Source of the DNA: Abyssibacter profundi
Lineage (GTDB): Bacteria > Pseudomonadota > Gammaproteobacteria > Nevskiales > OUC007
DNA length: 63,490 nucleotides
Reading direction: 5' to 3'
NCBI RefSeq assembly: GCF_003151135.1
Contig: NZ_QEQK01000020.1
Span: 1 to 63,490 of the forward strand
The notes beneath the pieces are model-generated. The model did not search any database and was not told where the DNA came from. It saw only the letters and a program-made list of their open reading frames with translations. The position numbers were made by a program, and so were the translations under genes. Each line of letters starts with the position of its first letter. Within the stretch, counting starts at the first letter, position 1. Below are positions 20,143 to 39,236 of this stretch, in pieces.

Positions 20143-20167
20143 TCGGTGGCCTCTGGCCTGTGCACGC

Positions 20168-23471: not shown

Positions 23472-25573
23472 GCCGCCTCCCGACCCAGCGCGGCCGCCAG
23501 CCAGGCTGGTTTGGCGCCAATCGGCAGCTGATTGAGGTAATCCAGGGGCCTGGCGGGGTCGAACTCAGGCCCCAGTATCCGCGTGTTGGGCGCGGACGCC
23601 TGAGCCGGCGTGCCCAGCACCTGATCAAAGACCTCGGCACCGTAAACCGCAGCGGTGGCATTGGTCATGGCCACCGGCCGCTCCAACTGCCCCCAGCGGT
23701 ACATCTGCGTCAACCACCAAAGGGCAGACGCCGCATCCGGCCGCGCGCTCGCATCGTGGGTGAAGCGCTGGATACGCACCGGCTCGGGGTCTAGCTCACG
23801 GGCGAAGCGGAACTGCCCGGACAGCGTGGGCAACAGGTCATCCACGGACTGATTGAGATAATGCGGCGAGGCCAGCAACCGTGCGATGTCCTGGGTGTGT
23901 GTGCGGTCTTCCAGCCAGCGGCCAGCGGTGTTCAAGGCCCGCAGCAGCCCGGCCAGCGCCTCCGGCCGACGGCGTGACAATGTCTCGCCGACACCGAACA
24001 CCTTTTCGACATGATCGGGCCACAGCTCGGCGCTGGTGGCTAGGGTCACGCCGATACCCCGCTCCACGGCCACGGTATTCCAGGGCTCGCCGACACAGAA
24101 TCCGGCGACATTGCCGACATCGAGGTTTGTCACCATCTGCGGCGGCGGAATCACGACCAGCCGCACATCGCGGTCGGGATCGATGCCGCCGCTGGCCAGC
24201 CAGTGTCGGAGCAGATAGTTATGGCTGGAACTCGGGAACACGACGCCGAAGGTCAGCCGCTGCCGGCCACGTGCCGCGCGCTGCTCCACCACCTTGCGCA
24301 AGGCGGCGGGTGCGCGTCGACGATCGCTGCTCAGATCGGGGTCGAGATCGCACATGTCCCGGAACAGGTCGCGCGAAACCGTGAGACCGTTGCCGCCCTG
24401 TGACAGGGTCATCGGCGCTGTCAGTGCCTGTTTGGGTCCGCCAGCACCGACGCTAGCCGCCAGCGGCATCGGGGCCAGCATCTGCGCGCCATCGAGCATG
24501 CCAATGGCCACCTTGTCGCGAATAGAAGCCCAGGAGGTCTCGCGCACCAGCGATACGTCAACGCCCTCCTGCCGGAACAGACCCAGTTCGTGGGCCACCA
24601 CCAGCGGCGCCGCATCGGTTAACGGGATGTAGCCAATCTCCAGCGGACGCCCGGCCGGCACCCGGCCGGTGCCCGATGACGAGCGGGCCGCCGGCTGCTC
24701 GGTCCCCGCCACCGTGTCCGGACCGGCTGGCGCTTCGGCGGAATCGGCCAGCGCGCTTGCCGGCACATCGGGCTTGGCATGGCGCTCGTGCAGAAAGTGC
24801 AGAACTTCGGCACGCAAATGGTTGTAGTGCGGATCATCGGCCAGCTCCAGCCGCTTGCGCGGTCGCAGCAGATCGACCTGGAGAATCTCGCCCACCGTGG
24901 CTGCCGGACCGTTGGTCATCATGACAATCCGGTCGGATAGCAAGACGGCCTCGTCCACGTCATGGGTAATCATGATGACCGTGTTGTTGAGACGCTGATG
25001 GATCTCCATCAGCGAATCCTGCAAATGCGCCCGCGTCAGCGCGTCCAAGGCACCGAAGGGTTCGTCCATCAGCAGCACCCGCGGCTCCATGGCCAGCGCC
25101 CGGGCAATGCCCACGCGCTGTTTCATGCCGCCGGAGATTTCATCCGGGCGCTTATCGGCGGCGTGACCCATGTGCACCAGCTCGAGGTTGTGCAGAATCC
25201 AGTCGCGCATCTCGGCCTTGGTCTTGCGGCCACGAAACACATGCTTCACGGCAATGGCGACGTTTTCGTACACCGTCAGCCAAGGGAATAGCGCATGGTT
25301 CTGAAACACCACCGCTCGCTCGGGGCCGGGGCCACGGACCTCGCGCCCCTCCAAAATCACCCCGCCCTCTGTCGCATCCGTCAGCCCGGCGACAATGTTC
25401 AGCACCGTGGACTTGCCGCAGCCCGAGTGGCCGATGAGCGAGATGAATTCGCCCTCGGCAATCTTGACGTGCACGTTGTCCAGGGCCTTGAACGTCCCGG
25501 ACTGGGTGTCGAAGACCTTGCTGACCTGGCTGATTTCCAGATGTGCGGAAGGCGCTTGTTGTTGTTCGCTCAT
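23468..25573 (-). CDS. nrtC: Nitrate ABC transporter ATPase fused to an NrtA-like domain (NrtC type)
   Basis: 701 residues. The N-terminal 270 residues are an ABC ATPase: GHSGCGKST (Walker A), EISGGMKQRVGIARAL (signature), RVLLMDEPFGALD (Walker B) and a late switch His in MITHDVDEA. After a low-complexity linker (about 272-305) a second domain to residue 690 resembles the NrtA binding protein (IGYIPLTDAAPLVVAHELG, GFCVGEPWNTVA, SSHNYLLRHWLASGG). In cyanobacterial NrtC such a domain senses nitrogen status. Inner-membrane-associated. It overlaps moaD by 4 bp and lies 13 bp after nrtB. Confidence 0.93.
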   Translation of the reverse strand: MSEQQQAPSAHLEISQVSKVFDTQSGTFKALDNVHVKIAEGEFISLIGHSGCGKSTVLNIVAGLTDATEGGVILEGREVRGPGPERAVVFQNHALFPWLTVYENVAIAVKHVFRGRKTKAEMRDWILHNLELVHMGHAADKRPDEISGGMKQRVGIARALAMEPRVLLMDEPFGALDALTRAHLQDSLMEIHQRLNNTVIMITHDVDEAVLLSDRIVMMTNGPAATVGEILQVDLLRPRKRLELADDPHYNHLRAEVLHFLHERHAKPDVPASALADSAEAPAGPDTVAGTEQPAARSSSGTGRVPAGRPLEIGYIPLTDAAPLVVAHELGLFRQEGVDVSLVRETSWASIRDKVAIGMLDGAQMLAPMPLAASVGAGGPKQALTAPMTLSQGGNGLTVSRDLFRDMCDLDPDLSSDRRRAPAALRKVVEQRAARGRQRLTFGVVFPSSSHNYLLRHWLASGGIDPDRDVRLVVIPPPQMVTNLDVGNVAGFCVGEPWNTVAVERGIGVTLATSAELWPDHVEKVFGVGETLSRRRPEALAGLLRALNTAGRWLEDRTHTQDIARLLASPHYLNQSVDDLLPTLSGQFRFARELDPEPVRIQRFTHDASARPDAASALWWLTQMYRWGQLERPVAMTNATAAVYGAEVFDQVLGTPAQASAPNTRILGPEFDPARPLDYLNQLPIGAKPAWLAAALGREAA

Positions 25574-25586
25574 GTCGAAACCTCGC

Positions 25587-26600
25587 CTAGCGATCCGTTT
25601 CGTAGGAGACCAGCCGCTGGAGCGTGAGCATCAGCCAGTCGAGTAAGAAGCCGATCAATCCAATGGTGATCACTGCCACCAGAATCCGGCCGAGAGAGTT
25701 GGAACTGCCGTTCTGGAACTCGTCCCAGACGAATTTCCCCAGACCGGGGTTCTGCGCGAGCATTTCCGCGGCGATTAGCACCATCCAGCCGATGCCCAGG
25801 GAGATGCGCAGCCCGGTGAAGATCATCGGCAAGGAGGCCGGTAGCGCGATCCGGCGGATGCGCGTGGCCAGCGGCAGGTTGATCACCCGTCCGACGTTGA
25901 TCAGGTCGCTATCAATACGAGAAACGCCGACGGCGGTGTTGATCAATGTGGGCCACAGCGAGCACAGCGTGACGGTCAGCGCCGAGTTGATGAACGACTT
26001 CTCAATCATCGGATCAGGCGTGACGTACACCGCCGACACCACAATGGTGATGATGGGCAGCCAGGCCAGAGGCGAGACCGGTTTGAACACCTGAATCAGC
26101 GGGCTGATCGCCGTGTTCAGCGTCTCGCTCAGCCCACAGGCCACACCGATGGGAATGGCAATAATCGTGGCCAGCACAAAGCCGGCGAAGACCGTTTGCA
26201 GACTGGTCCAGATCTGGTCGTAAAACGTCGGTGCGCCGGTGTAGTCCCGGTACACCAGCTTGGCGTCCGGGTTACGGGCCAGCTGCCGTTCATGCCGTTG
26301 CTCCTGACGCTCGTAAAACGCCTCTGCCCGTTCGCGTTCGGCACGATGTTCGGCATGTAGATTCTTGGCCTGCGCCCAGGTCTGCGCCGGGCCCGGCAAC
26401 TGCCCCAGACTGGTATTCACCTGCGCCGCGCCCGCAGCCCACAGCATCAGGAAGATACCGATGGCCAGCAATGGCAGGCCGATACGCTGCCACAGGGCGT
26501 GCAGTTGCTCACGGGGATTGTCACCACTGGCCAGCAAGACCATGGGCGAGAGCCAGGCAAAGCCGGCCGTGTTGAGTCCATTGACGATGCGCGCTTTCAT
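25587..26600 (-). CDS. nrtB: Nitrate ABC transporter permease NrtB
   Basis: 337 residues. Inner-membrane permease of the BPD_transp family. The first TM near LPLLAIGIFLMLWAAG is followed by a long charged periplasmic segment (RAERERAEAFYERQEQRHER), usual in proteobacterial NrtB. The conserved core follows with TVFAGFVLATIIAIPIGVAC, the cytoplasmic EAA-like loop (RIALPASLPMIFTGLRISLG) and a final TM. The ATG at 26600 (MKARIVNGLN) is chosen; 26645 is less likely. A perfect hairpin separates it from nrtA. Confidence 0.93.
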   Translation of the reverse strand: MKARIVNGLNTAGFAWLSPMVLLASGDNPREQLHALWQRIGLPLLAIGIFLMLWAAGAAQVNTSLGQLPGPAQTWAQAKNLHAEHRAERERAEAFYERQEQRHERQLARNPDAKLVYRDYTGAPTFYDQIWTSLQTVFAGFVLATIIAIPIGVACGLSETLNTAISPLIQVFKPVSPLAWLPIITIVVSAVYVTPDPMIEKSFINSALTVTLCSLWPTLINTAVGVSRIDSDLINVGRVINLPLATRIRRIALPASLPMIFTGLRISLGIGWMVLIAAEMLAQNPGLGKFVWDEFQNGSSNSLGRILVAVITIGLIGFLLDWLMLTLQRLVSYETDR

Positions 26601-26652
26601 CGAGTCTCTCCGTGATCCCGCCGGGGATCGGTTACTCGGCTGCAAGAAGCCT

Positions 26653-26690: not shown

Positions 26691-28040
26691 CTAGCGATAA
26701 ATGTCGCCTTGCTTCATACCGATAGGGAACGACGACAAATAGGCATTGGGCTGGGTGCCGTCATAGGTGATGCCGTCGATGAATTCGGTCTGCGGCGGTT
26801 TGAAGCCGGTTTCCTCATCGAAATCCGGGAAATCCGAGGCTTCGAAGTAACCCTCTTCGATCAACTCGCGGGCCGCCGCGGCGTACACATCGGGCCGATA
26901 CACCTTGCGGGCGGTCTCCATGTACCAGTCGTCCGGCTTGTGTTCGGGAATCTGCCCCCAACGCCGCATCTGCGTCAGGTACCAGATGGCATCCGAGTAG
27001 TAGGGATAGGTGGCGTTGTAGCGGAAGAAAACGTTGAAATCCGGCACGGCGCGCTTGTCGCCTTTTTCGTATTCGAAGGTGCCGGTCATGGAGTTGGCGA
27101 TGACCTCCTCGTCCGCCCCCACGTAGTACGGCCGCGCGAGCATTTCCACGGCCTTGCCGCGGTTGGCGTTGTTGTTTTCATCCAGCCAGGCCGCTGCGCG
27201 AATCAACGCCTTGACCACAGCCTTGTGCGTTTCCGGATAGCGATCCGCCCAGGCCTTGGACACGCCGAAGACCTTCTCGGGGTTGTTCTTCCAGATTTCG
27301 TAGTCGGTGATGACCGGGACGCCGATTCCCTTGAACACCGCCTGCTGATTCCAGGGCTCACCGACGCAGTAACCGTAGATTGTGCCGGCTTCCAGCGTCG
27401 CCGGCATTTGCGGCGGTGGTGTCACGGATAGCAGGGCATCAGCTTCCAGCGTGCCCGAGATATCCCCCTTGAGCGGCGCGTAGAAACCGGGGTGAATCCC
27501 GCCGGCAGCCAGCCAGTACCGCAGCTCGTAGTTGTGGGTGGATACCGGGAAGACCATGCCCATCTTGAACGGCTTGCCGGCATCGTTGTACTGCTCGACC
27601 ACGGGTTTGAGGTAGTCGGCCTTGATCGGATGCACCGGCTTGCCGTCGGCGCGCTTCGGGATGCCGGGCTTCATCTGCTCCCAGACCTCGTTGGACACCG
27701 TGATTCCGTTGCCATTCAGATCCATGGAAAACGCGGTCACCACATGTGCCTGGGTGCCGAAGCCAATCGTGGCCCCCAGCGGCTGGCCGGCCAGCATGTG
27801 GGCGCCGTCGAGCTGGCCGTCAATGACCCGGTCCAACAAGACCTTCCAATTGGCCTGGGCTTCCAGTTCGACAAAAAGCCCCTCGTCCTCGAAGAAAAAC
27901 AGCTCCTTGGCCACCGCCAGCGGCGCCATATCGGTGAGCTTGATGAATCCGAATTTAAGGTCGGGCTTTTCAGGCTCGGCGGCCAGGGCTGTGGTCGACA
28001 GCATGAGGGCTCCGAGACTGGCAATGCAGTGCTTCAACAT
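26691..28040 (-). CDS. nrtA: Nitrate ABC transporter substrate-binding protein NrtA
   Basis: 449 residues. Periplasmic nitrate/nitrite-binding protein with signal peptide ([20 protein letters not shown]). Conserved stretches: [66 protein letters not shown]. It starts 22 nt after the leader terminator, so it depends on antitermination. It is first gene of the nrt-moco unit. It could bind bicarbonate or cyanate instead in related proteins, but its neighbours fit nitrate. Confidence 0.94.
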
Positions 28041-28061: not shown

Positions 28062-28113
28062 AAAAAAAAAGCGCCCGCCGAGTGCAGCCTTTGGGGCTGA
28101 CTCATGCGAACGC
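28062..28113 (-). terminator. Intrinsic terminator (attenuator) in the nrtA leader
   Basis: On the minus strand the outer arms GCGTTCGC/GCGGGCGC (with two G-T pairs) and the inner arms GAGTCAGCC/GGCTGCACTC (one bulge) form a long stem, followed by nine T residues at 28070-28062. It ends 21 bp before the nrtA ATG. Its 5' arm contains the 3' arm of the hexaloop hairpin at 28107-28122, so the two structures exclude each other. Confidence 0.88.
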
Positions 28114-28188
28114 CTTTGTTCGGGCCTGACCAGCCGCAGGGCTGTGCAGACAATGTTCGGGCCGGGCCGCTGCTGGACACCGTTGTCC
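28107..28188 (-). promoter_or_regulatory. ANTAR-type two-hexaloop antitermination leader of nrtA
   Basis: Hairpin 1 (28188-28175): stem GGAC/GTCC, loop AACGGT. Hairpin 2 (28122-28107): stem CGAAC/GTTCG, loop AAAGGC. Both loops are six nucleotides with A at position 1 and G at position 4, the known recognition feature of ANTAR-domain antiterminators. Hairpin 2 overlaps the terminator 5' arm. An extra stem (CAGCC/GGCTG) lies between them. Binding by the nasT-like product is inferred. Confidence 0.82.
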
Positions 28189-28210: not shown

Positions 28211-28226
28211 AGCAATGCTGATGCCA
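28211..28226 (-). promoter_or_regulatory. Sigma-54-type -24/-12 promoter of the nrt-moco unit
   Basis: Minus-strand TGGCATC-N4-TTGCT matches the RpoN consensus TGGCACG-N4-TTGCW with exact GG-GC spacing. It lies about 22 bp before the first hexaloop hairpin, so the transcript would begin just before the antitermination leader. The match GCACC-N5-GGTGC at 28557-28573, inside the divergent gene, resembles an NtrC site but may be chance. Confidence 0.7.
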
Positions 28227-28286: not shown

Positions 28287-29141
28287 ATGGAACAGCCCTC
28301 GAATCGTCGCCCCGTGGTTGCGTCTTCCCTGCAGGGGAAACGCATTGCCGTACCGGAAACCCGCTCTCTGGACGTGTTCTGCCGCTTGCTGGAAGAGCGC
28401 GGGGCTCGCGTGCTGCGTTGCCCGCTGGTCGCGATTCTGGACGCGCCAGACCCCGAACCGGTCGCCCGCTGGTGTGACCGCTTGGTTGCAGGAAGCTTCG
28501 ATACGGTCATCTGGCTCACCGGCGAAGGGCTACGCCGCACCATGAAGGTGGTGCATCGCACCAACCCGGTGCTGGAAGAGGCGTTTGTGCGTCAGCTGGG
28601 CCAGTGCTTCAACGTCTGCCGGGGCCCCAAGCCCGCCCGCGAACTTCGAGCCTTGCGCATCACCCCGTCACTGGTCGTCTCCCCTCCCACAACAGCCGGT
28701 GTCATCCAAGCGCTAAAAGACCATGCACTGGCCGGCCAACATGTCGGCGTTCAGCTCTACGGTGACAATCCGAACACGCCGTTAATGCAATGGCTGGAAC
28801 AGGCCGGCGCCCTGGCCGATTGCGTGGCGCCCTACGTCTATGCCGACAAGGCCAGCGAACAAGACGTGCTGGGTCTTATCGACGCGTTGGTGGATGGTCA
28901 GGTGGATGCCATCGCACTGACCAGCGCACCGCAGCTGCGCTACCTCTTTCGAGTGGCGCGCAAGTATGAGCGGGATGCGGCCCTGAAGACCGCGCTGATG
29001 CAGACCTGCGTAGCGTCGGTCGGACCGGTCGTCACCGCCAGCCTGGCCGAGGCGGGAATCACCGCGACCGTGCAGCCGGAGAGCCAGTTTTTTCTTAAAC
29101 CGCTGACTCGGGCACTGGAGCACTACTTTGCCGGTCGCTGA
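28287..29141 (+). CDS. hemD: Uroporphyrinogen-III synthase-like protein
   Basis: 284 residues. Two-lobed HemD fold: LQGKRIAVPETRSLDVFCRLL at the start, FDTVIWLTGEGLRRTM, VVSPPTTAGVIQAL, VGVQLYGDNPNTPLMQWL, DAIALTSAPQLRYLF and ASVGPVVTASLAEAGI. The enzyme closes hydroxymethylbilane to uroporphyrinogen III, precursor of sirohaem needed by the nitrite reductase NirB. It is the only plus-strand gene in the nitrate region, divergent from nrtA and converging on modC with a 7-bp gap. It may be a second, nitrate-linked copy, but the rest of the haem pathway is not in view. Confidence 0.83.
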   Translation: MEQPSNRRPVVASSLQGKRIAVPETRSLDVFCRLLEERGARVLRCPLVAILDAPDPEPVARWCDRLVAGSFDTVIWLTGEGLRRTMKVVHRTNPVLEEAFVRQLGQCFNVCRGPKPARELRALRITPSLVVSPPTTAGVIQALKDHALAGQHVGVQLYGDNPNTPLMQWLEQAGALADCVAPYVYADKASEQDVLGLIDALVDGQVDAIALTSAPQLRYLFRVARKYERDAALKTALMQTCVASVGPVVTASLAEAGITATVQPESQFFLKPLTRALEHYFAGR

Positions 29142-29148: not shown

Positions 29149-30243
29149 TCAGCGCAGCACGGCCACCGCCTTGATCTGCGCCCAAAGCTGGTCGCCTGAA
29201 CACAGCCCGAGTTCCGCGACAGATCGTCGGGTCACCCGTGCCAGCAGAGGGGTCGACCCGGCACGAAGCCGAACCAGCTGATCTGGCCCATCGCCGGGCC
29301 CATCCAGCGCCTCGACGGTGACGGGCAGGCGATTGAGCAGGCTGCTGCGGGCCTCGGGGTCACGGCTCAGGCTGACATCGCGGGCCTGCACCTGCAGCCG
29401 CAAGTAGGCGCCGGGCTGCCCGAGGCGCCCATCGACCCACAGTGCACCACCTGCGAACGCGGCGCGCAGCAGCCCCCAGCGGGCATCCTGCTCGACGACC
29501 TGCGCCTCGATGAGCGCGCCGGGTTCTTCATGGGCGCCCCGCAGATGCGGCAGCACGTCCCGCACCGTCCCCTGCCTGGCCACCCGCCCCTGACGCAGCT
29601 CCACGACGTAATCCGCCAACCGAGCGACTTCGTACACGCGATGCGTGACGTACAGCACGGGCAGCGCCTGATCACGGCAGAGACGGTCGAGATACGGCAG
29701 CAGCTGGTGGCGTCGCTCCGGGTCCAGCGCGGACAAGGGTTCGTCCAGTAGCAACAGCGCGGGCCCGACGAGCAATGCGCGAGCGATAGCGACACGCTGG
29801 CGCTCCCCACCGGATAGCGTTTGCGGACGCCTGTCCAGCAACTGACCCAGTTCCAGTGATTCGACCACCGCATCGAAACCGGGGGCCCCGTCACCGGCCC
29901 GCCGGGCGGCATAACGCAGATTGCCCCGCACTGTGAGATGCGGGAACAGCGCGCAATCCTGGAACACGTAACCGATCCGGCGTCGGTGAGCCGGTAGCTG
30001 ATGCTGCGGTGATTGCCAAGACTGCCCACCCAGGGTCACCCAACCCTGAGCGGCCGACAGGCCGGCGATGGCGCGCAGCAGGGTGGTCTTTCCGGCACCT
30101 GACGGGCCGAAGATGGCCGTCACACCTCGACCCGGCAACTGCAAATCGACCGCCAGACGATCCGCGCATGACGGGACCGCAGCCGCCAGCCTGAGCTGCA
30201 CCCGCAACCCGCAGGGCGATGTTGTCGGCGGACAGCCGGTCAT
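29149..30243 (-). CDS. modC: Molybdate ABC transporter ATPase ModC
   Basis: 364 residues. ABC ATPase domain with GPSGAGKTTLLRAIAGL (Walker A), LSGGERQRVAIARAL (signature) and LLLLDEPLSALD (Walker B). A C-terminal Mop/TOBE-type molybdate-binding region follows (LNRLPVTVEALDG, QLVRLRAGSTPLLARVTRRS). The ATG at 30243 gives an ATGA overlap with modB; an earlier Met at 30327 lies within modB. It is last gene of the porin-nir-nas-mod unit. It energises molybdate uptake for the cofactor of NasA. Confidence 0.93.
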   Translation of the reverse strand: MTGCPPTTSPCGLRVQLRLAAAVPSCADRLAVDLQLPGRGVTAIFGPSGAGKTTLLRAIAGLSAAQGWVTLGGQSWQSPQHQLPAHRRRIGYVFQDCALFPHLTVRGNLRYAARRAGDGAPGFDAVVESLELGQLLDRRPQTLSGGERQRVAIARALLVGPALLLLDEPLSALDPERRHQLLPYLDRLCRDQALPVLYVTHRVYEVARLADYVVELRQGRVARQGTVRDVLPHLRGAHEEPGALIEAQVVEQDARWGLLRAAFAGGALWVDGRLGQPGAYLRLQVQARDVSLSRDPEARSSLLNRLPVTVEALDGPGDGPDQLVRLRAGSTPLLARVTRRSVAELGLCSGDQLWAQIKAVAVLR

Positions 30244-30932
30244 GTCCCGACGCCGCGCAAGCCAAGCAACCGTCCGCGCCAGCCGTAAACCGGCAGCAAC
30301 ACGGCAAAGGACAGGCCAACCAGCCACGCCGCCAGCCCATGGGCCCGGTCGTAGTCTAGCGATTCCACATGCTCGTAAATCTGCACGGCAGCCACGCGCG
30401 TCTCGCCCGGCAGGCTGCCGCCCATCATCAACACCACGCCGAATTCACCCAGCGTGTGCGCAAACCCCAGCACGGCAGCGGTCACGAAGCCGGGCCAGGA
30501 CATCGGAAGCACCAGCGTGACCAGGCGGTCCAGCGGACCGGCTCCCAGGGTCGCGGCGGCATCCAGCGATGCGGACCCCACCGCCTCCATCGCGCCCTGA
30601 ATCGGCTGGACGACGAAGGGCAGCGAGTACACCACCGAGGCCAGCACCAGCCCTTCGAATGTGAATGGCAGACGCCCCAGCCCCAGGGCTTGCGTCCATG
30701 CCCCGATGGGGCCGCCCTCACCCAATACGATGAGCAGGTAGAAACCCAGGACACTGGACGGCAACACCAGCGGCATGGCCACCAGTGTTGCGACGATGGC
30801 CCGCCAGCGGCTGCTGCCCCGCGCCAGCCACCAGGCCAACGGTGTGGCGAGAATGAGCAGGAACAGCGTCGAGACCAGCGCCAGCCGCAGGCTTAACGCC
30901 AGCGCCTGCCAGTCAGCGGCGGCCAATGTCAC
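30240..30932 (-). CDS. modB: Molybdate ABC transporter permease ModB
   Basis: 230 residues. Inner-membrane permease with five or so TM segments, for example LALVSTLFLLILATPLAWWL and VLPSSVLGFYLLIVLG. The EAA-type loop is DAAATLGAGPLDRLVTLVLP, and GFAHTLGEFGVVLMMGGSLPG is typical of ModB. The GTG start at 30932 overlaps the modA stop by 4 bp; the longer frame from 31085 is inside modA. Confidence 0.93.
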   Translation of the reverse strand: MTLAAADWQALALSLRLALVSTLFLLILATPLAWWLARGSSRWRAIVATLVAMPLVLPSSVLGFYLLIVLGEGGPIGAWTQALGLGRLPFTFEGLVLASVVYSLPFVVQPIQGAMEAVGSASLDAAATLGAGPLDRLVTLVLPMSWPGFVTAAVLGFAHTLGEFGVVLMMGGSLPGETRVAAVQIYEHVESLDYDRAHGLAAWLVGLSFAVLLPVYGWRGRLLGLRGVGT

Positions 30933-31699
30933 GAGATAGCGGCGCGATCGACAACGGCATAGCCAGCCGCCTCGATACGCGCTTGCGCCGGCTGGCCGCG
31001 TAGCCAACGGATGAAGGCCACCGCGGCCGGCTGCCCGGCACCACGGAGCAGCAACACGGCTTCCTGGTCGATCGGTGCATGCCAATGCGCGGGCACCAGC
31101 CAGGCCTGGTTACGCTGGGACGGCGGAATCAGCGACCACGCAACCAGCCCGATCGGCGCGTGTCCGGTCGCGACATAACGCGTGGCCTGGGCCACGTTTT
31201 CGCCCAGCACCCGTTGCGTGGCATCCAGATCGAGTGCGAGGTAGCGCAGCACCTGCATCGCGGCCTGGCCATAGGGCGCCAGGCGCGGATTGGCCAGCGC
31301 AATCGTCGGTTCGGCGTACAGCCGCTGAGGCCCGCGCAGCGGCTGCCCGTCACCGGCCCAAAGTGCCAGCCGGCCGCTGGCATAAACAAAGCGCTTGCCT
31401 GGAACGGTGAGCCCCAGCGCTTCCAGCCGCGCCGGTTTATCGCGATCGGCCGATAACAGCACGTCATACGGAGCGCCTTGGCGAATCTGGGCGTAAAGCT
31501 TGCCGGATGCGCCACCGATCAACGTGAGGCGGTGTCCGGTTTGTCGCCGAAACAAGGGCGCCAATTCACGGGCAACCGGCAGAAAATTCATCGCCACGGC
31601 CACGCGCGCGGGCTCTGCCGGACTCGCCAGGCCAGGGTGTGTCCATACGAACAGCCCGAGCCAGGCCAGAGCCAACCAGCGCAGCAGGGCCGCGATCAT
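30929..31699 (-). CDS. modA: Molybdate-binding periplasmic protein ModA
   Basis: 256 residues from the ATG at 31699, which overlaps the nasA stop (ATGA); the frame upstream to 32071 is inside nasA. Signal peptide MIAALLRWLALAWLGLFVW...ASPA. Mature motifs: VAVAMNFLPVARELAPLF, LTLIGGASGKLYAQI (oxyanion contact), GAPYDVLLSADRD, TIALANPRLAPYGQAAMQVL. Binds molybdate or tungstate for ModBC. Direct coupling to the molybdenum enzyme NasA is the noteworthy feature. Confidence 0.92.
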   Translation of the reverse strand: MIAALLRWLALAWLGLFVWTHPGLASPAEPARVAVAMNFLPVARELAPLFRRQTGHRLTLIGGASGKLYAQIRQGAPYDVLLSADRDKPARLEALGLTVPGKRFVYASGRLALWAGDGQPLRGPQRLYAEPTIALANPRLAPYGQAAMQVLRYLALDLDATQRVLGENVAQATRYVATGHAPIGLVAWSLIPPSQRNQAWLVPAHWHAPIDQEAVLLLRGAGQPAAVAFIRWLRGQPAQARIEAAGYAVVDRAAIS

Positions 31700-34380
31700 C
31701 CGGCGGCCGCGAGTAATGCGCGTAGCTCCGGCAGGCAGGATCCGCAGTTGGTTCCGGCCTTGAGCCGGGCGCCAATGGCATCCGTATCGCCGCAGCCCTG
31801 GGCAATGGCATCGACGATGGCCTGTCGGCCGACGCCAAAGCAGGCGCAGACCTGCGGTCCGGGGTCGGCCCCGGGGTCCGGCGATTGACCCGCCAACAGA
31901 CCCCGGCGGTCTGCCTCGTCGAGCGCCGGTTTGGCAAACAAGCCGCCAAGCCAACCTCGATCCGGCAGACGCGCCGGTCCTGCCGCAACAAATAGACAGC
32001 CGACCAGGCGACCATCCCTGATGCGCGCGATGCGACCCTGCCGCGTCCTGGCGTCGACATACTGCAGCCATTCATCGCGCTCGCCTCCGAGCCACACCTT
32101 GGCTCGCTCCACCCAGTCTTCCGGCGACAGGTGTTCGTCGATGCTGACGAACTCCATGCGCCAGAAGGCCGGACCTCTCGCCCGTACCCAATACGCCGGT
32201 GCGGTGTCTCGTGGCCCGCCGGCATCGGCCGCCAGCGCCTCGCGGCTCAAGGCAAAGCCATACCAGGCGGCCGGCAGCGCACGCACACGCACGGGGGTGT
32301 GCTTGAACTCGGGCTCGCCCGAGTCGGGATCGACCACCGGATTGACCACGGCATCGATCCGACAGCGACTGGACACGGCATCGTTCCAGTGCATCGGCAC
32401 GAAGACCGAACCCGGCCGCTGACCGGTATCGATATGGACCCGGGCCAGCGCCCGTCCCCATCGGCTCTCGATCAGGGCCACGTCCTGCTCAAACAGAGAC
32501 AGACTGCGCGCATCCTGCGGATGCACATCCACGGTCGGCTCCGGCCGATGCCCACCCAAGCGAGGTGCCTTGCCGGTGCGCGTCATCGTGTGCCAGTGAT
32601 CACGCACACGTCCGGTATTGAGTACCAACGGATAATCGGGATTGGGCGGATGCGCCGGGGCACGTGGCTGGAGCACCTGCATGCGCGCCTTGCCCTGATC
32701 CGTTGAAAACGGGTGATCCGCGAACGGTCTGGCTCGATCCTCGGGTCCGAGTATCGGCCACCGGCGTGGGGCCATGGCCGCATAGGCCTGGGCGCCCTGC
32801 CCGACCAGTCCCGCCAGATTCAACTGGCGGATGCGACCGTTGGCGTCGTTCTCGAATGCAGTCAGCCGCGCATGTTCGTCAAAGATCTCCGCCGTTGTTT
32901 CATAATCAAAGCCCTCCATCCCAAGCCGCTGGGCCACCTGGGCCACCATCCACCAGTCTGGCCGCGCCTCACCGGCCGCCGGCAGAAACCGCCGCTGCCT
33001 GGAGATCATCCGCTCCGAGTTGGTTACCGTGCCGTCCTTCTCCCCCCAGGCCTCGGCGGGAAGCCGGACGTTGGCGGTGGCCACCGTATCGGTATTGGCC
33101 ATGCAGTCGGAGACGATCACATTCGGACAGCGCAGCAATGCCTCACGCACGCGATCGGCGTCCGGCATGGAAACCACGGGATTGGTCGCCATGATCCAGA
33201 TCAGCTGTATCCGGCCGGCATGCACGGCCTCGAACAAATCGACCGCTTTCAGCCCCGGCTGGCGGGCGACGGCCAAGCTCCCCCAGAACCGCTGGACCCG
33301 ATCCGCCTCGTCAAAACCCATGTGGGCAGCCAGCGTCGATGCCAGGCCCCCGACCTCGCGCCCACCCATGGCGTTCGGCTGACCGGTTATCGACAGGGGG
33401 CCGGTACCGGGCCGATTCAGGCGTCCGGTTGCCAGGTGACAATTAATGATGGCGCTGACCTTGTCACTGCCGGCGCTGGATTGATTCACGCCCTGCGAGT
33501 AGAGCGTGACCACCCGGTCCGTGCGGGCGAATAGCTGGAAGAAGCGCGCCACATCCTCTGCACCCAGACCGCAGCGCGCAGCCACCGCCGCCGGGGATGC
33601 GCCTTGCTCCCGGGCAGCGGCCAGCGCCTCGCCAAACCCGCTGACCTGGGCCTCCAGATAGCGGTAGTCCAGATGACCGTTGTGCTCCAGAAAGGCCAGC
33701 AGTCCCTGGAACAGCGCGACATCGCTCCCCGGCGCGAGCGGCAAATGCAGATCTGCCTCCTCTGCGGTGGCGCTGCGCCGCGGATCGATCACCACGACCT
33801 GTGCCTTGCGTTGCCGCTGATTACCACGAATGCGCTGGTAGACGATGGGATGACACCAGGCCGTATTGGCTCCCACCAACACGATGAGGTCGGCCACATC
33901 GAGGTCCTCGTAACAGCCAGGGACCACGTCTTCGCCGAAGGCCCGTTGGTAGCCCACCACCGAGGACGACATGCAAAGCCTGGAGTTCGTATCGATGTTG
34001 CCGGTGCCCAGTCCACCCTTGGCGAACTTGTTGGCCACGTAGTAATCCTCGGTCAACAACTGACCCGAGACATACAAGGCCACCGCCTCCGGCCCATGCG
34101 AATCCAGCACGCGACGAAAACGACCCGCCACGTCATCCAGCGCGGTGTTCCAGTCCACGGCTTGGCCGTCCACGCTGGGGTGTAACAGTCGCTGATCCAG
34201 ATCCAGCGTCTCACCCAACGCGCTGCCCTTTGAGCACAGCCGTCCCGCATTGGCCGGGTGCGCCGGATCACCGGCAATCGTGGCCTGGCCGTTCTCCAAG
34301 GGGGTGGCCAGCACGCCACAACCCACCCCGCAATAAGGGCAGGTGGTGCGAACAGGCGACTGCGTGGCGGTCGCTGGCAT
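31696..34380 (-). CDS. nasA: Assimilatory nitrate reductase catalytic subunit NasA
   Basis: 894 residues, cytoplasmic. Reduces nitrate to nitrite with bis-MGD and iron-sulfur clusters. N-terminal [4Fe-4S] motif TTCPYCGVGCGV plus GRLCSKGSALGETL; molybdopterin domains with LCMSSSVVGYQRAFG, VVIDPRRSAT, NQSSAGSDKVSAIINCHLATG, GREVGGLA. The C-terminal molydopterin-dinucleotide domain has VLNTGRVRDHWHTMTRTGK. Residues from about 835 form an added BFD-like [2Fe-2S] domain (VCACFGVGRQAIVDAI, TNCGSCLPELRALL), usual in NasA of proteobacteria. The start at 34380 lies 1 nt after the nirD stop. Confidence 0.95.
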   Translation of the reverse strand: MPATATQSPVRTTCPYCGVGCGVLATPLENGQATIAGDPAHPANAGRLCSKGSALGETLDLDQRLLHPSVDGQAVDWNTALDDVAGRFRRVLDSHGPEAVALYVSGQLLTEDYYVANKFAKGGLGTGNIDTNSRLCMSSSVVGYQRAFGEDVVPGCYEDLDVADLIVLVGANTAWCHPIVYQRIRGNQRQRKAQVVVIDPRRSATAEEADLHLPLAPGSDVALFQGLLAFLEHNGHLDYRYLEAQVSGFGEALAAAREQGASPAAVAARCGLGAEDVARFFQLFARTDRVVTLYSQGVNQSSAGSDKVSAIINCHLATGRLNRPGTGPLSITGQPNAMGGREVGGLASTLAAHMGFDEADRVQRFWGSLAVARQPGLKAVDLFEAVHAGRIQLIWIMATNPVVSMPDADRVREALLRCPNVIVSDCMANTDTVATANVRLPAEAWGEKDGTVTNSERMISRQRRFLPAAGEARPDWWMVAQVAQRLGMEGFDYETTAEIFDEHARLTAFENDANGRIRQLNLAGLVGQGAQAYAAMAPRRWPILGPEDRARPFADHPFSTDQGKARMQVLQPRAPAHPPNPDYPLVLNTGRVRDHWHTMTRTGKAPRLGGHRPEPTVDVHPQDARSLSLFEQDVALIESRWGRALARVHIDTGQRPGSVFVPMHWNDAVSSRCRIDAVVNPVVDPDSGEPEFKHTPVRVRALPAAWYGFALSREALAADAGGPRDTAPAYWVRARGPAFWRMEFVSIDEHLSPEDWVERAKVWLGGERDEWLQYVDARTRQGRIARIRDGRLVGCLFVAAGPARLPDRGWLGGLFAKPALDEADRRGLLAGQSPDPGADPGPQVCACFGVGRQAIVDAIAQGCGDTDAIGARLKAGTNCGSCLPELRALLAAAG

Positions 34381-34381
34381 C

Positions 34382-34723
34382 TCAGATGGGCAGCGCGACA
34401 AAGACCACGTCGCCATCGACGCGGGTGGCCAGCGTGCCGGTCTGCCCTTCATCCGGGGCGACCGCCTCGCCTGACTGCAGCTCGATGCACCAGTCATGCA
34501 GCGGGCAGTACACCCGGCATCCAGACACAATGCCCTGCGACAACGGACCGCCGCGATGCGGGCAGGCATCGTCCAGGGCAAACACCTGATCGTCGGCCGT
34601 GCGGAACACCGCAACCCGGCCACCCGGATGGGTCAGCGTCTTGGCGCCCATGCGGGGAATCTCGTTGAGCAAACCGACGCGCTGCCATTGCGGCGCGGCT
34701 TCACTGGCGGGCATCGCAGTCAT
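34382..34723 (-). CDS. nirD: Nitrite reductase (NADH) small subunit NirD
   Basis: 113 residues. Rieske-type fold with the cluster pattern CPHRGGPLSQG and YCPLHDWCIEL, so the cluster ligands appear intact; in enterobacterial NirD they are often lost. Starts MTAMPASEAAPQW. ATGA overlap with nirB upstream; nasA follows directly. Partner of NirB in reducing nitrite to ammonium. Confidence 0.93.
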   Translation of the reverse strand: MTAMPASEAAPQWQRVGLLNEIPRMGAKTLTHPGGRVAVFRTADDQVFALDDACPHRGGPLSQGIVSGCRVYCPLHDWCIELQSGEAVAPDEGQTGTLATRVDGDVVFVALPI

Positions 34724-37197
34724 GATCCAGCTCCGGTGAGCGCGTTCAGGGGACGGAATTCGCTCGCAGCCTCAGTGCCAGGCGCCATGGTTTCCCAAGG
34801 GTCGACCTGGGCGGTTTTCTGTGACTCGAGAAAGCGCGCATAGGCCGCCTGTCGACCCGCCGGGTCATCCACGACCCGTGCCCGGATGTAATCCAGCCCG
34901 ACCCGTTCGATCCAGGGCGCCGTGCGCTCCAGGTAATGCGCCTCTTCGCGGTAGATCTGCATAAAGGCGCCGCAATACTCCAGAACTTCGGCCTCGCTGG
35001 TGACCCGGCAGAGCACGTCGGCCCCACGCAACTTGATGCCACCGTTACCGCCGATTTGCAGCTCATAACCCGAGTCGGTGCACAGCACCCCAAAATCCTT
35101 GATCGAGGTCTCGGCGCAGTTACGTGGGCAACCGGAGACCGCCATCTTGAACTTGTGCGGTGTCCAGGACCCCCAGGTCATGCGTTCGAGCTGCACACCC
35201 ATGCCGGTAGAGTCCTGGGTCCCGAAGCGGCACCACTCGCTGCCGACACAGGTCTTGACGGTTCGCAAAGACTTGCCATAGGCATGGCCTGAGATCAGCC
35301 CGCCCTGCTCGCGCAGGTCCTTCCAGACCGCGGGCAAGTCCTCCTTTTTGACGCCGAACAGATCAATCCGCTGGCCACCCGTCACCTTGACGGTCGGGAT
35401 GGCGTACTTGTCCGCCACATCCGCGATTGCCCGCAGCTCCCGGGGTGAAGTCAGCCCGCCGAACATGCGCGGAACCACTGAATAGGTCCCGTCCTTCTGA
35501 ATGTTCGCGTGAGCGCGCTCGTTGATGAACCGAGATTGCGGATCGTCGCGGCCATCGGGATGGGTGGAGATCACGTAGTAGTTCAAGGCCGGTCGGCATT
35601 TGTTGCACCCATCCGGCTGCTTCCAGCCCAGACCGGCCCGCGCATCCGCCGCATCGGTCCAGCCCTGCTCGCGAATCGCTGCACGGACCTCGTCATGGTC
35701 CAGGTCGGTGCAGCCGCAGATGCTCGGCTTCTCAACCACCATGTCGTCGCCCAACGTGGCCTCCAGCACCTGCTCCACCATGGGCTTGCAAGAACCACAG
35801 CTGGTACCCGCCTTGGTGTACTGGCCGACTTCGGCCGCCGTCTTCAGCCCCTCGCGCTGAATGGTTTCGACGATCGCGCCCTTGCACACGCCATTGCAGT
35901 CACACACCTGGCGGTCATCCGGCCAGTCAGCTGCCGATGCGCTGTTCGCCGCAGGCGCATCCACAAAGGCCTGACCAAACACCAGCCGGTCACGAAACTC
36001 GGACACATCGGCGCCCTGGTTCATCAGATCGAAATACCAGCCGCCATCGAGGGTATCGCCATAGAGCACGGCGCCGGCGATGCGATTGTCCTTGACGATC
36101 AGGCGCTTGTAGACGCCGCGGCGCGGATCCTGGAAGACGATATCTTCGCTGCCCTCCCCGCCGGAGAAGTCGCCGGCCGAGAACAAATCCACGCCGGTGA
36201 CCTTGAGCTTGGTCGACACCGCCTTGGACACGAACCGGCCTGAGCCGACCTGGGCCAGGTGTGAGGCGCAGACCTTGGCCTGATCCCAGATCGGAGCCAC
36301 CAGCCCGAACACGGCCTGACGGTGCTGCACGCATTCACCGATGGCGTAGATGCTGGGATCGTAGGTCTGCATGGTGTCGTCGACGACGATGCCACGCTCA
36401 CAGTGCAGGCCGATTTGCTGAGCCAGCGCAATATTCGGGCGGATGCCCACCGCCATGACCACGAGGTCGGCCTCCACCTCGCTGCCATCGGCAAAACGGA
36501 TTCCGGTGACACGATCATCGCCGAGAATCTCCTGCGTTGCCGCCTGCATCCGGAACGCCATCCCGCGTGACTCCAGTTCCTGCCGCAGCAGATTGCCGGC
36601 CGGCGCATCAAGCTGGCGCTCCATCAGGGTGTCCATGATGTGGATGACGGTGACCTCCATGCCCCGCTTGGCCAGGCCATTGGCGGCCTCCAAACCCAGC
36701 AACCCGCCGCCGATGACCGCGGCCTTGCGATGGGTCTTGGCCGCATCGAGCATGGCGTTGACATCGTCCACATCACGGAAACTGATCACACCGTCCTTGT
36801 CCTTGCCCGGCACGGGGATGATGAACGGATTCGAGCCGGTGGCCAGCAGCAATCGGTCGTAAGGCACCTCAAGCCCTGATGCTGAGACCACCACTTTCTG
36901 TCGGCGGCGGACATCCACGACCGGATCACCGGCATGCAAGGTGATGCCGTGCTCGGCATACCACTCCGGGGTATTGATCATGATCTCGTCGAGCGTCTTC
37001 TCGCCCGCCAGCAGCGGCGAAAGCATGATCCGGTTGTAGTTGCCCAGCGGTTCGGCACCGAACACGGTGATGTCGTAGAGATCCGGCGCCAGCTTGAGCA
37101 GCTCTTCGACCGTCCGCATCCCGGCCATGCCGTTGCCCACGACCACCAGCCGGGGTTTGCGAGTCGAAGAAATCGACGGTTCTGTGGATTCGGTCAT
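34720..37197 (-). CDS. nirB: Assimilatory nitrite reductase (NADH) large subunit NirB
   Basis: 825 residues. Reduces nitrite to ammonium using NAD(P)H, FAD, [4Fe-4S] and sirohaem. FAD/NAD domains at 10-300 (VVVGNGMAGMRTVEELL, AAVIGGGLLGLEAANGLAKRG, VVMAVGIRPN), two BFD-like [2Fe-2S] segments (VCDCNGVCKGAIVETI, TSCGSCKPMVEQVL; ICGCTDLDHDEVRAAI). The sirohaem half holds KTCVGSEWCRFGTQDS and SGCPRNCAETSIKDFG. The ATG at 37197 is preferred over 37326. It is 34 bp after the porin. Confidence 0.95.
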   Translation of the reverse strand: MTESTEPSISSTRKPRLVVVGNGMAGMRTVEELLKLAPDLYDITVFGAEPLGNYNRIMLSPLLAGEKTLDEIMINTPEWYAEHGITLHAGDPVVDVRRRQKVVVSASGLEVPYDRLLLATGSNPFIIPVPGKDKDGVISFRDVDDVNAMLDAAKTHRKAAVIGGGLLGLEAANGLAKRGMEVTVIHIMDTLMERQLDAPAGNLLRQELESRGMAFRMQAATQEILGDDRVTGIRFADGSEVEADLVVMAVGIRPNIALAQQIGLHCERGIVVDDTMQTYDPSIYAIGECVQHRQAVFGLVAPIWDQAKVCASHLAQVGSGRFVSKAVSTKLKVTGVDLFSAGDFSGGEGSEDIVFQDPRRGVYKRLIVKDNRIAGAVLYGDTLDGGWYFDLMNQGADVSEFRDRLVFGQAFVDAPAANSASAADWPDDRQVCDCNGVCKGAIVETIQREGLKTAAEVGQYTKAGTSCGSCKPMVEQVLEATLGDDMVVEKPSICGCTDLDHDEVRAAIREQGWTDAADARAGLGWKQPDGCNKCRPALNYYVISTHPDGRDDPQSRFINERAHANIQKDGTYSVVPRMFGGLTSPRELRAIADVADKYAIPTVKVTGGQRIDLFGVKKEDLPAVWKDLREQGGLISGHAYGKSLRTVKTCVGSEWCRFGTQDSTGMGVQLERMTWGSWTPHKFKMAVSGCPRNCAETSIKDFGVLCTDSGYELQIGGNGGIKLRGADVLCRVTSEAEVLEYCGAFMQIYREEAHYLERTAPWIERVGLDYIRARVVDDPAGRQAAYARFLESQKTAQVDPWETMAPGTEAASEFRPLNALTGAGS

Positions 37198-37231
37198 GAT
37201 GCAGTCCTCGCGATCAGTCGGGGGAAGCGGT

Positions 37232-38455
37232 TCAGAAGGCGTAAGCGGTTTGCAGCCACAGGCGTCGCGTATCCACGGCGTGGGTATCGGCGCTGTAGTC
37301 GGCAAACTTCGCCAGCAGGCTGACACCGCATTTCAGTTTTTTGGCTGCGACCAGGTCCAGCTCCGTGCCCAGATCCTGGCCGCCGGTATCCGCCGTGAAC
37401 TGGTGCCAGGCAGCCACGAGCTTTACGCCGCCCAACTTCGTGACGACCGAGGCGTAGAGATCCTCGACCCCGAAGGCCGGGATCGCCGCGACGAAAATAT
37501 CGGCAAAGCCCTGGAACTTGTGGTTGGTGCCAAAAGGCGTCTGGAACGCATAGCTCCCGTCACCCGACAGCAGCTCGTAGCCGATGGCGGGCTTGAAGCC
37601 GGCGAATTGGTAGCTCAACTCCAGCTGGCTGTAGTCGGCGTCCACGGTGTCGGGACTGTCGGCATAGTCGCTCTGGGTTGCGTAGCTGGCGCGGTAGCCA
37701 AACGCGCCCAGTTTTCCTGCGGCCGCAACCCCCAGCGTCTGGCTGTCAGGTGCGCCCGGAATACGCGGCGCGGTGCCGGCATCCACATCAAAATCCACCA
37801 GGTAGGCAAATCCGCTCAGCGACCAGGCGGCCGACGGTGCCAGCCGTGCGTGCAGCAAATGCGACGACATCTCGTTGTCGTTGAAGAAGATGAAGTTCTG
37901 ACGGGTCAGATAGCTGTAGTCCAGCGTGACGGCATCGCTTGCCTTGTACTGCAGCCGCAAGCCGTCGAAGGTCTGCTCATCCTGACGCCAGCCGACATTG
38001 CCGACAAAACGGGCGTTGTCGAGGATGATGCGCTGGCGTCCCAACGTGGCCTTCAACCCATGACCCGGCGCGTACTGGAGCTGCGCCCGGTTGATATCGG
38101 AGCCGGTGGGGTCGGGAATCATCGAAAATCCGGACTGGCCATTGGTGGTCGCCAACACCCCCGGGCCGCTGTTGTAGTCCTGGCCCCCGGTTGCGAAAAC
38201 ACCCTCGTACTCGACCAGCACACTCCAGTCATCGGCTGGAGCAGCGACATAGCCCAGGCGCAGTCGCGTGGTCAGCGCATCGCCATCTTCCAGTGCATTG
38301 TCCTGCTCCACATGTTCATAGCGGATTCGCAGGTCAACCATCGGCTCACCAGCGGCCAGCCCCGTTGCATCGGGTGCAGACGCCAGGGCCTGCAGGGGCA
38401 GGATTAACGCGAATGGGCCGACAACGGCGGCACGTAAAAAGCTTGGTTTGGTCAT
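37232..38455 (-). CDS. Outer-membrane beta-barrel porin of the nitrate assimilation operon
   Basis: 407 residues from the ATG at 38455, preceded by GGGAG. Signal peptide ends near LQALASAPDA. The mature protein has alternating amphipathic strands (LRIRYEHVEQDN, TTRLRLGYVAAPADDWSVLVEYEG) and ends with aromatic LWLQTAYAF, as expected for BAM-inserted barrels. It resembles alginate-export-like porins seen ahead of nitrate assimilation genes. A start at 38509 would run through the leader terminator, so it is rejected. It probably passes nitrate across the outer membrane; this is inferred from its place at the head of the operon. Confidence 0.82.
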   Translation of the reverse strand: MTKPSFLRAAVVGPFALILPLQALASAPDATGLAAGEPMVDLRIRYEHVEQDNALEDGDALTTRLRLGYVAAPADDWSVLVEYEGVFATGGQDYNSGPGVLATTNGQSGFSMIPDPTGSDINRAQLQYAPGHGLKATLGRQRIILDNARFVGNVGWRQDEQTFDGLRLQYKASDAVTLDYSYLTRQNFIFFNDNEMSSHLLHARLAPSAAWSLSGFAYLVDFDVDAGTAPRIPGAPDSQTLGVAAAGKLGAFGYRASYATQSDYADSPDTVDADYSQLELSYQFAGFKPAIGYELLSGDGSYAFQTPFGTNHKFQGFADIFVAAIPAFGVEDLYASVVTKLGGVKLVAAWHQFTADTGGQDLGTELDLVAAKKLKCGVSLLAKFADYSADTHAVDTRRLWLQTAYAF

Positions 38456-38474
38456 GTTCAGGCTCCCAGAAACG

Positions 38475-38507
38475 AAAAAGCGCCCGACAGCCAAGCTGCC
38501 GAGCGCC
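38475..38507 (-). terminator. Intrinsic terminator (attenuator) in the porin-nir-nas-mod leader
   Basis: Minus strand: GCGCTCGGCAGC and GCTGTCGGGCGC pair over 12 bp (two G-T) around a TTG loop, followed by TTTTT at 38479-38475. It lies 19 bp before the porin ATG. Its 5' arm overlaps the second hexaloop hairpin at 38501-38514. Confidence 0.9.
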
Positions 38508-38561
38508 ATTGCTCAAATTCGGTTGTGGAGCTGAGTCCGCTGAATGGGCCGCCGTTGACCC
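38501..38561 (-). promoter_or_regulatory. ANTAR-type two-hexaloop antitermination leader of the porin-nir-nas-mod unit
   Basis: Hairpin 1 (38561-38546): stem GGGTC/GGCCC, loop AACGGC. Hairpin 2 (38514-38501): stem GAGC/GCTC, loop AATGGC. Both hexaloops have A at position 1 and G at position 4. Hairpin 2 uses bases of the terminator 5' arm, giving a terminator/antiterminator switch. The nasT-like gene ends 109 bp upstream. Confidence 0.87.
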
Positions 38562-38583
38562 GCAGAATCAGTCAGCCTCTGTT

Positions 38584-38601
38584 ATGCATCTGGCGTGCCA
38601 A
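38584..38601 (-). promoter_or_regulatory. Sigma-54-type -24/-12 promoter of the porin-nir-nas-mod unit
   Basis: Minus-strand TGGCACG-CCAG-ATGCA matches the RpoN consensus except for the first T of TTGC. The predicted start, about 12 bp downstream, is just before hexaloop hairpin 1 at 38561. The same arrangement is found before nrtA. Confidence 0.78.
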
Positions 38602-38651
38602 ACGAAATTGCGCGTCAATACGGGCTTGGAGACGCCGGATCCCGCAGATGC

Positions 38652-38668
38652 CGCACCGCAGCAGTGCG
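38652..38668. promoter_or_regulatory. Possible NtrC-type enhancer site
   Basis: CGCACC-GCAGC-AGTGCG agrees with the NtrC pattern TGCACY-N5-RGTGCA apart from the outermost bases. It is about 55 bp upstream of the sigma-54 element and immediately after the nasT-like stop codon. Assignment is tentative. Confidence 0.4.
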
Positions 38669-38669: not shown

Positions 38670-39236
38670 CTACGCGCTATTCTGGAGCAAGCGCAATGAG
38701 ACATCGGCCATCGGCGTGCCGGAGCGCATCGATTCATCACGCAGCCGTTTAAAGGCCTCGGCCTCAGTCAGCCCATGCTGATCCATTAATAAGCCTTTGG
38801 CGCGTTCGATCAACCGGCGGCCCTCCAGCGAATGCTTGGCTTCCTGTAGTTCCGCCCGTAGCAAATCAGCCTGCCGGTACTGGGCCACCGCCACTTCGAC
38901 CATCGACCGGAGCAGCGCCGGTGACAGGCCATCCACGCTGTAGGCCGCCACGCCCTGGCCCAATGCCATCCGCAACAGCTCGGGGTTATCGGTTCGGGTC
39001 AGCATCAACAAGGGCTGGCCAGCATTCGCGCCTGCAGCAACCAGGTCTTCCACCACGTCGCGCGCGGGTGAATTGGCGTCAGCCAAGACCACATCCGGAT
39101 GGAGCTCGGCAACCCGGTCATAAAGCTCCAAAGGCTGGGACACCGTGGCGATGACTGAGAATCCTGCGTCTTCCAGGGCCGCTCGCAATAGCGAAGCGCG
39201 GCCGGACTTGGCATCGACGAGTAGGATTTTCAGCAT
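38670..39236 (-). CDS. nasT: ANTAR-domain response regulator / transcription antiterminator (NasT-like)
   Basis: 188 residues from the ATG at 39236. The receiver-like domain (1-115) has KILLVDAKSG and Asp53 in VVLADANSP. The usual conserved Lys is absent (LMLTRTDNPE), and the acidic pair at the N terminus is reduced to one Asp. A helical linker leads to the ANTAR RNA-binding domain (about 125-185) with LEGRRLIERAKGLLMDQHGL and SEAFKRL-like sequence (TEAEAFKRLRDESM). NasT binds two-hexaloop leaders and stops transcription termination in nitrate genes; both targets are in this window. The usual nitrate-sensing partner NasS is not encoded here. Confidence 0.9.
   Translation of the reverse strand: MLKILLVDAKSGRASLLRAALEDAGFSVIATVSQPLELYDRVAELHPDVVLADANSPARDVVEDLVAAGANAGQPLLMLTRTDNPELLRMALGQGVAAYSVDGLSPALLRSMVEVAVAQYRQADLLRAELQEAKHSLEGRRLIERAKGLLMDQHGLTEAEAFKRLRDESMRSGTPMADVSLRLLQNSA

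Follow-up and report, generated by a model that had tools for sequence, protein, structure and literature searches.

The closest described systems to the locus reported here are the NasT-dependent leaders of nitrate assimilation operons. In Paracoccus denitrificans, NasS and NasT are reported to part on nitrate, after which NasT binds the leader RNA (PMC3795266). ANTAR proteins are described as binding two hairpins and keeping a terminator from forming, an activity for which A1 and G4 of the loop are needed (PMC3369931). Two transporter systems are also relevant: cyanobacterial NrtC is reported to be regulated via its C-terminal domain and PII (PMC6603209), and Escherichia coli MalK is described as holding MalT while no substrate is transported (PMC10427625).

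The DNA analysed here is a stretch of 63,490 nucleotides from Abyssibacter profundi, referred to below as the window. On its minus strand, a leader of approximately 215 nt (leader 2) lies between a nasT-like gene and the start of a porin gene at 38455. It contains, in this order, a GCAC-N7-GTGC dyad, a −24/−12-like site, a hairpin with the loop AACGGC, a hairpin with the loop AATGGC, and a 12-bp terminator:

38670–39236, minus strand: nasT-like gene, degenerate receiver and ANTAR domain; the sole ANTAR protein found in the genome
38653–38667, minus strand: NtrC-like dyad GCAC-N7-GTGC, 2 nt past the nasT stop; the spacing of 7 is enriched before promoter-bearing leaders
38585–38600, minus strand: sigma-54-like −24/−12 site TGGCACGCCAGATGCA; the pattern is at chance alone and is backed by its conserved position before leaders
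38546–38561, minus strand: predicted ANTAR hairpin 1 of leader 2, GGGUC-AACGGC-GGCCC, from composite scans and a held-out covariance model
38499–38516, minus strand: predicted ANTAR hairpin 2 of leader 2, UUGAGC-AAUGGC-GCUCGG, from composite scans and a held-out covariance model
38475–38506, minus strand: predicted intrinsic terminator of leader 2, 12 pairs and T5, excluding hairpin 2, from folding and a motif scan

It is very probable, judging from the sequence, that this stretch is a NasT (ANTAR) transcription attenuator placed behind a promoter of the NtrC/sigma-54 type. A preliminary description of the DNA had pointed to the same elements, and all of them were found. Both loops are present on the minus strand and obey the A1/G4 rule, which is specific when compared across 16 loop rules; the near-consensus TGGCACG-N4-ATGCA lies at 38600–38585 and has one mismatch to TGGCACG-N4-TTGCW; the NtrC-like dyad lies beside the nasT-like stop, at 38667–38653; and the second hairpin overlaps the terminator stem. 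This stem runs from 38506 to 38480 and is followed by T5 at 38479–38475. Its 5′ arm (38506–38495) covers the final two bases of the hairpin 2 loop together with the 3′ side of that hairpin, so that the two pairings are mutually exclusive. The predicted −24/−12 site would place the start of the transcript near 38574. The region 38455–38570 is more stably folded than 199 of its 200 shuffled versions (z −3.1); the fold energy of the whole 215-nt leader is not exceptional (z −1.4, with 21 of 200 shuffles as low).

The arrangement was scanned for on both strands as a composite of two A..G.. hexaloop hairpins (at least 4 pairs) and a terminator stem of at least 8 pairs before T5 that overlaps the second hairpin. 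The composite occurs at two places in the window, namely leader 2 and a leader upstream of nrtA (leader 1). It does not occur in any of 30 dinucleotide-shuffled versions of the full window. Since few terminators are to be expected in shuffled sequence of high G+C content, the comparison of loop rules is the stronger control. This comparison covered 73 loci (1,348,809 bases), consisting of the window and regions surrounding matches to ANTAR or NMT1_2. Under the A1/G4 rule there were 49 composite sites (one leader, in L065, being counted twice), whereas the 15 other rules for the first and fourth bases gave 4 sites in total, with 0–1 per rule. A −24/−12-like site was present within 100 nt upstream of 34 of the 49 A1/G4 sites, compared to none of the 4 sites of the other rules. 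The scanner is incomplete: it found a leader in 20 of the 40 loci of a second set, some of which have NasT but no composite. No further composite was found in the weaker model matches L191–L197 or in 30 loci with TGGCAY-N6-TGC, and there was no third leader in the genome among the 150 of 2581 model candidates that were scored, where leader 1 itself was not listed.

These results bear on the suggestion that the hairpins form an ordinary intrinsic attenuator, or a terminator of nasT read-through, that involves no ANTAR recognition. A terminator alone would indeed explain the stem and the T run. However, only A1/G4 of the 16 loop rules gives many sites, nasT and the terminator are separated by a promoter-like site, and a covariance model from which the window was held out recovers both window leaders, as described below. 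We regard this explanation as extremely unlikely.

Counted in isolation, the −24/−12 pattern occurs in the window at the level expected by chance (15 matches with up to two mismatches, against 15.25 expected), as does the looser TGGCAY-N6-TGC in the whole genome (107 matches, against 96 for a reversed control). The support for this element comes from its position before leaders in relatives. The dyad was compared with other spacings: among the 34 promoter-bearing sites, 12 have the exact GCAC-N7-GTGC in the 300 nt upstream, compared to 0–2 for each other spacing between 0 and 15, and with one mismatch allowed the dyad is found at 23 of the 34, compared to 4–16. The genome encodes NtrC, with a score of 706.7 bits against an NCBIfam cut-off of 558.6, and an RpoN would be expected to accompany it.

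Leader 1 spans 28226–28062 and precedes nrtA on the minus strand:

28211–28226, minus strand: sigma-54-like −24/−12 site of leader 1 TGGCATCAGCATTGCT, from a pattern scan, lying before the composite
28175–28188, minus strand: predicted ANTAR hairpin 1 of leader 1, hexaloop AACGGT, from the composite scan and held-out model
28107–28122, minus strand: predicted ANTAR hairpin 2 of leader 1, hexaloop AAAGGC, from the composite scan and held-out model
28062–28113, minus strand: predicted intrinsic terminator of leader 1, with T9, from the composite scan

The preliminary description had proposed that one control architecture is present twice. This holds for the hairpins, the terminator and the −24/−12-like site, which occur at both leaders, but not for the exact NtrC dyad GCAC-N7-GTGC, which is absent upstream of leader 1. 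It had also stated that the leaders are not simple sequence copies of each other, in agreement with the BLAST comparison, in which the sole match between them is the 12-nt terminator end.

Conservation was assessed on an alignment (A2) of 16 leaders from other genomes, part of a set of 32, chosen for similar spacing. Three rows had aligned badly in a first alignment (window leader 1, L059 and L153); A2 omits these three and window leader 2, and has two other rows added. In A2, 95.8% of cells are paired and 7 of the 9 pairs are changed on both sides, in 26 cells compared to 6.0 in shuffles; the rows were preselected by a scanner that needs at least 4 pairs, which biases the percentage paired and affects the two-sided changes less. 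Sliding the pairing partners by 1–3 columns abolishes the covariation signal. The two pairs that close the loops are C-G in all 16 rows. A search of the window with the covariance model derived from A2, which contains neither window leader, ranked these two leaders first and second, at 36.7 and 23.4 bits, with the next window match at 11.1 bits. The comparison with related genomes that had been suggested as a check thus shows structures that covary and a held-out model that finds both leaders. An Rfam search of the window gave no family at its gathering score, and two chance-level matches at E values up to 10.

In relatives, the same leader grammar precedes nrtA, porin, nirB, nasA, MFS and NasS-like genes. 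Together with the held-out model and the enrichment of the dyad, this gives good support to the earlier proposal that the two leaders belong to a shared regulon of the NasT/ANTAR and sigma-54/NtrC type. We conclude that the leaders are sound new members of the known NasT/ANTAR attenuator kind.

The genes behind the two leaders are:

37232–38455, minus strand: porin, first gene of the controlled operon (Alginate_exp, PF13372; profile match)
34720–37200, minus strand: nirB, nitrite reductase large subunit, start codon uncertain (profile match)
31696–34623, minus strand: nasA, assimilatory nitrate reductase with a C-terminal BFD-like domain (profile match)
29149–31700, minus strand: modA, modB and modC, molybdate uptake, approximate outer limits (profile matches)
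26691–28040, minus strand: nrtA, nitrate-binding protein with a signal-peptide-like start (NMT1_2 match)
25587–26645, minus strand: nrtB, permease (database match)
23468–25573, minus strand: nrtC fused to a NasS-like domain; ATPase approximately residues 11–264, NasS-like part approximately residues 306–684 (23522–24658)

The first of these operons had been read as porin-nirBD-nasA-modABC. Porin, nirB, nasA and modABC are all present; nirD is absent between nirB and nasA, where the nirB stop at 34720 and the nasA start at 34623 leave a gap of 96 nt. We note that positions 17922–23225 of the window, after nrtABC and on the same strand, hold genes for the molybdenum cofactor, namely moeA, a moaC/moaB fusion, moaA, a mobA-like gene and a moaE/moeB fusion. 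A gene for a HemD-like uroporphyrinogen-III synthase (28287–29138) is divergent to leader 1 and could provide siroheme for nirB. The search included two other genomes of the genus (G061 and G062). Neither has an ANTAR match or a strong match to NMT1_2, and the nitrate block may have been gained here or lost in those two.

The nasT-like protein matches the ANTAR family (PF03861) with 70.2 bits and the receiver family (PF00072) with 28 bits, under the cut-off of 30.2. Receivers usually carry a lysine where NasT has Asp-Gly, here at residues 102–103, a pair shared by most of 71 NasT rows. A free NasS was not found in the genome (47 contigs, completeness 99.75%), in which family and protein queries gave only NrtA and the C-terminal domain of NrtC as NMT1_2 matches; the preliminary description makes no reference to this absence. 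The usual place of nasS is directly after nasT: in 20 of 29 other loci, an open reading frame of 350–420 amino acids starts −14 to +32 nt from the nasT stop.

A different location was seen in Salinisphaera sp. Q1T1-3 and apparent same-genus genomes (g21; L022, L023, L026, L027, L030, L031 and L033), in which nasS lies behind a NasT-type leader and has no signal-peptide-like start. The idea that Salinisphaera is without NasS was rejected once nasS had been located there. In genomes of this type the sensor gene would sit within the operon that its partner NasT controls.

An alternative reading of the window is that the real partner of NasT is a free NasS that lies outside the assembled sequence or is too diverged for NMT1_2. 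The 47 contigs leave room for a gap, and the most diverged NasS-like proteins of relatives score only approximately 150 bits with the NrtC domain. Against this stand the high completeness of the assembly and the outcome of the two kinds of query; moreover, mapped nasS genes are mostly beside nasT or in the nrt operon, and the window contains both places with no nasS in either. We therefore consider a hidden NasS improbable.

NasT without NasS is common. The class includes 68 genomes with weaker matches. Of these, 53 have an ANTAR match as well as an NrtA-like match, and in 43 of the 53 a single NMT1_2 match exceeds 250 bits; it is NrtA-like in the loci that were read. The absence of free NasS as a feature special to genomes with a fused NrtC was rejected for this reason, many ANTAR genomes being without a NasS that could be found. 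It follows that the missing NasS is no proof that NrtC has taken over its function, and the argument from the fusion loses weight. We also note a group of gammaproteobacterial loci (L198–L229, for example L199, L202, L205 and L223) that have NasT and nrtABC, and in which NasS was found neither free nor fused. The scanner finds a leader in 8 of 20 loci with such orphan NasT proteins.

The fused domain was placed by searches, trees and profile models. In a class-wide search of 369 genomes, the NrtC C-terminal domain scores 259–351 bits with NasS-like proteins, fusions and some Tat-exported relatives, and at most 239 bits with the remaining class proteins (216 with its own NrtA), a lower range that also includes some diverged NasS. 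Fusions of an ATPase with a domain of this type occur in seven further genomes (G246, G329, G424, G256, G390, G237 and G435). Six of these have an ANTAR match, with none in G256, a draft that is 90% complete. Free NasS was not found in the seven, one strong NMT1_2 protein each in G329 and G256 being left unplaced. A 747-residue open frame in G234 was rejected as a fusion, since nrtC lies there in another frame.

Binding-protein stretches of at least 250 residues and at least 140 bits were used as input for the trees. A quick tree had 82 rows, after dropping 15 diverged, redundant or incomplete rows; a careful tree had 56, after dropping 26 more, including eight NasS rows, two of which (L139 and L156) the quick tree had placed outside the NasS group. 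In the careful tree the window domain lies inside NasS (97/91, for a set of 12 NasS rows and the window row), on a long branch, and the cyanobacterial NrtC and CmpC domains lie apart, with Tat-exported proteins (99/93). The remaining seven fusions group in a separate clade (95/84); its position beside NasS or NrtA is not resolved in this tree. AU tests rejected none of three alternative groupings: the window domain with cyanobacterial NrtC (p 0.29), all fusions with the cyanobacterial domains (p 0.21), and all fusions as one clade (p 0.42).

Models were compared on the tree set with one Picosynechococcus domain added. The window domain scores 421 bits with the NasS model and 264 bits with the cyanobacterial model. 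With models of three members, NasS was best for it in 20 of 20 draws, with a mean of 377 bits, compared to 336 for the nearer Tat-exported group, 264 for the cyanobacterial domains and 228 for NrtA. For the other fusion domains, the NasS models and those of the nearer Tat-exported group were approximately equal. The window domain keeps 40 of 42 near-invariant positions. On these scores and placements, the nearest relatives of residues 306–684 of NrtC appear to be NasS proteins rather than NrtA or the cyanobacterial NrtC domains, although the AU tests also allow the cyanobacterial grouping. Fusions of this kind are found repeatedly in Gammaproteobacteria; they may have more than one origin, independent of cyanobacterial NrtC.

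Two observations concern the Tat-exported proteins. A nitrate-binding protein with a Tat-like start is linked to nasT in L133, L134, L136 and L137 and in L064, L065, L067 and L080; of the Tat-like proteins, the group comprising L130, L133, L134, L136 and L137 is close to NasS in the models.

The receiver aspartate of NasT is kept in 33 of 40 NasS-paired proteins, in 2 of 20 orphans, and in 5 of 5 readable fusion genomes (6 of 6 in another reading); in a NasT tree of 84 of the 85 rows, a truncated fused row being omitted, the link between this residue and a NasS domain rests on 1–2 independent pairs, and it was not used as a test. The aspartate is also kept in 14 of 19 NasT genomes whose binding proteins are Tat-exported, an observation that the fusion does not account for. 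Its retention in the fusion genomes would fit a retained partner for NasT.

The main competing explanation of the fusion is that the NrtC C-terminal domain acts as in cyanobacteria, shutting nitrate uptake post-translationally (with PII) and unconnected to NasT, so that NasT would always be free and the leaders would answer only to the amount of NasT and to NtrC. The order of domains is the same as in NrtC and CmpC of solved transporters, and in Synechocystis PII is reported to bind NrtC and NrtD, with loss of the NrtC regulatory domain giving an ammonium-insensitive transporter (PMC6603209). The AU test allows the window domain to join cyanobacterial NrtC, and ANTAR genomes in which no NasS was found exist in any case. 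The model scores, the placement of the window domain within NasS in the careful tree and, with the limit just given, the retained aspartate all point the other way. We regard this explanation as possible, if rather doubtful.

The reading that we favor for the leaders is attenuation by NasT. Under nitrogen limitation, NtrC would drive initiation approximately 12 nt past the −12 element. If NasT is not available, the 12-bp terminator would form and the porin-nirB-nasA-modABC transcript would end before the porin start codon. A free NasT dimer would hold both A1/G4 hexaloop hairpins; hairpin 2 uses the 5′ arm of the terminator, which then cannot form, and the operon would be read. Nitrogen limitation would thus start transcription, and nitrate would let it continue. 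A second leader of the same grammar precedes nrtA-nrtB-nrtC, and one NasT would therefore switch uptake and reduction together.

For the nitrate input, we propose that the NasS-like C-terminal domain of NrtC would replace free NasS, holding NasT without nitrate and freeing it with nitrate. The fused domain would hold NasT at the membrane and release it as nitrate enters, an RNA-level counterpart of MalK-MalT; the evidence leaves the chances of this evenly balanced. With nrtC located downstream of leader 1, this sensor would in addition exert feedback on the operon that encodes it.

The leaders extend the NasT regulon and were not picked up by any Rfam family at its threshold; the loop rule provides a simple and specific finder of NasT leaders near nitrate genes, though some are missed. 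In a search of mainly open-access literature, we found no paper with both NasS and NrtC as whole words and, among the titles listed, none on such a fusion. Should the fused sensor prove real, it would couple transport physically to gene control at the RNA level and open the puzzle of NasT without nasS to testing: in some genomes the sensor would be part of the transporter, and others may have lost nitrate sensing. Annotation would then change as well, a NasS in fused form being readily labelled a nitrate ABC ATPase.

The locus can now be compared with the known systems. Like nasA of Paracoccus denitrificans and nasAB of Azotobacter vinelandii, it has NasT and a hairpin leader between regulator genes and the nas operon, and in those systems too NtrC nitrogen control is reported as a further layer (PMC3795266, PMC5424462; A. 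vinelandii as cited in PMC12316311). Unlike the described NasT/NasS leaders, the window has no free nasS beside nasT, a NasS-like domain being fused instead to the ATPase NrtC, and it has two leaders, one of which precedes the operon encoding this domain.

The two hexaloop hairpins with A1 and G4, whose formation excludes a terminator, are as described for the antiterminators EutV, NasR and AmiR (PMC3369931). Unlike the leaders of these proteins, leader 2 has a sigma-54-like promoter and an NtrC dyad directly upstream, and the signal is expected to be nitrate acting through NasT rather than phosphorylation, as for EutV, or the NIT domain of NasR.

The fused NrtC has an ATPase followed by a solute-binding-like domain, as in cyanobacterial NrtC and CmpC (PDB 8wm7, 9u9z and 9uak). 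It differs in that its domain is nearest to NasS in the tree and the models (subject to the AU result above), and in that its operon carries a NasT-type leader. The nearest working analogy is MalK-MalT of E. coli, in which, as would be the case here, an ABC ATPase holds a transcription regulator. In the window the regulator is unrelated to MalT, the part that holds it would be a nitrate-binding domain, and the output would be antitermination.
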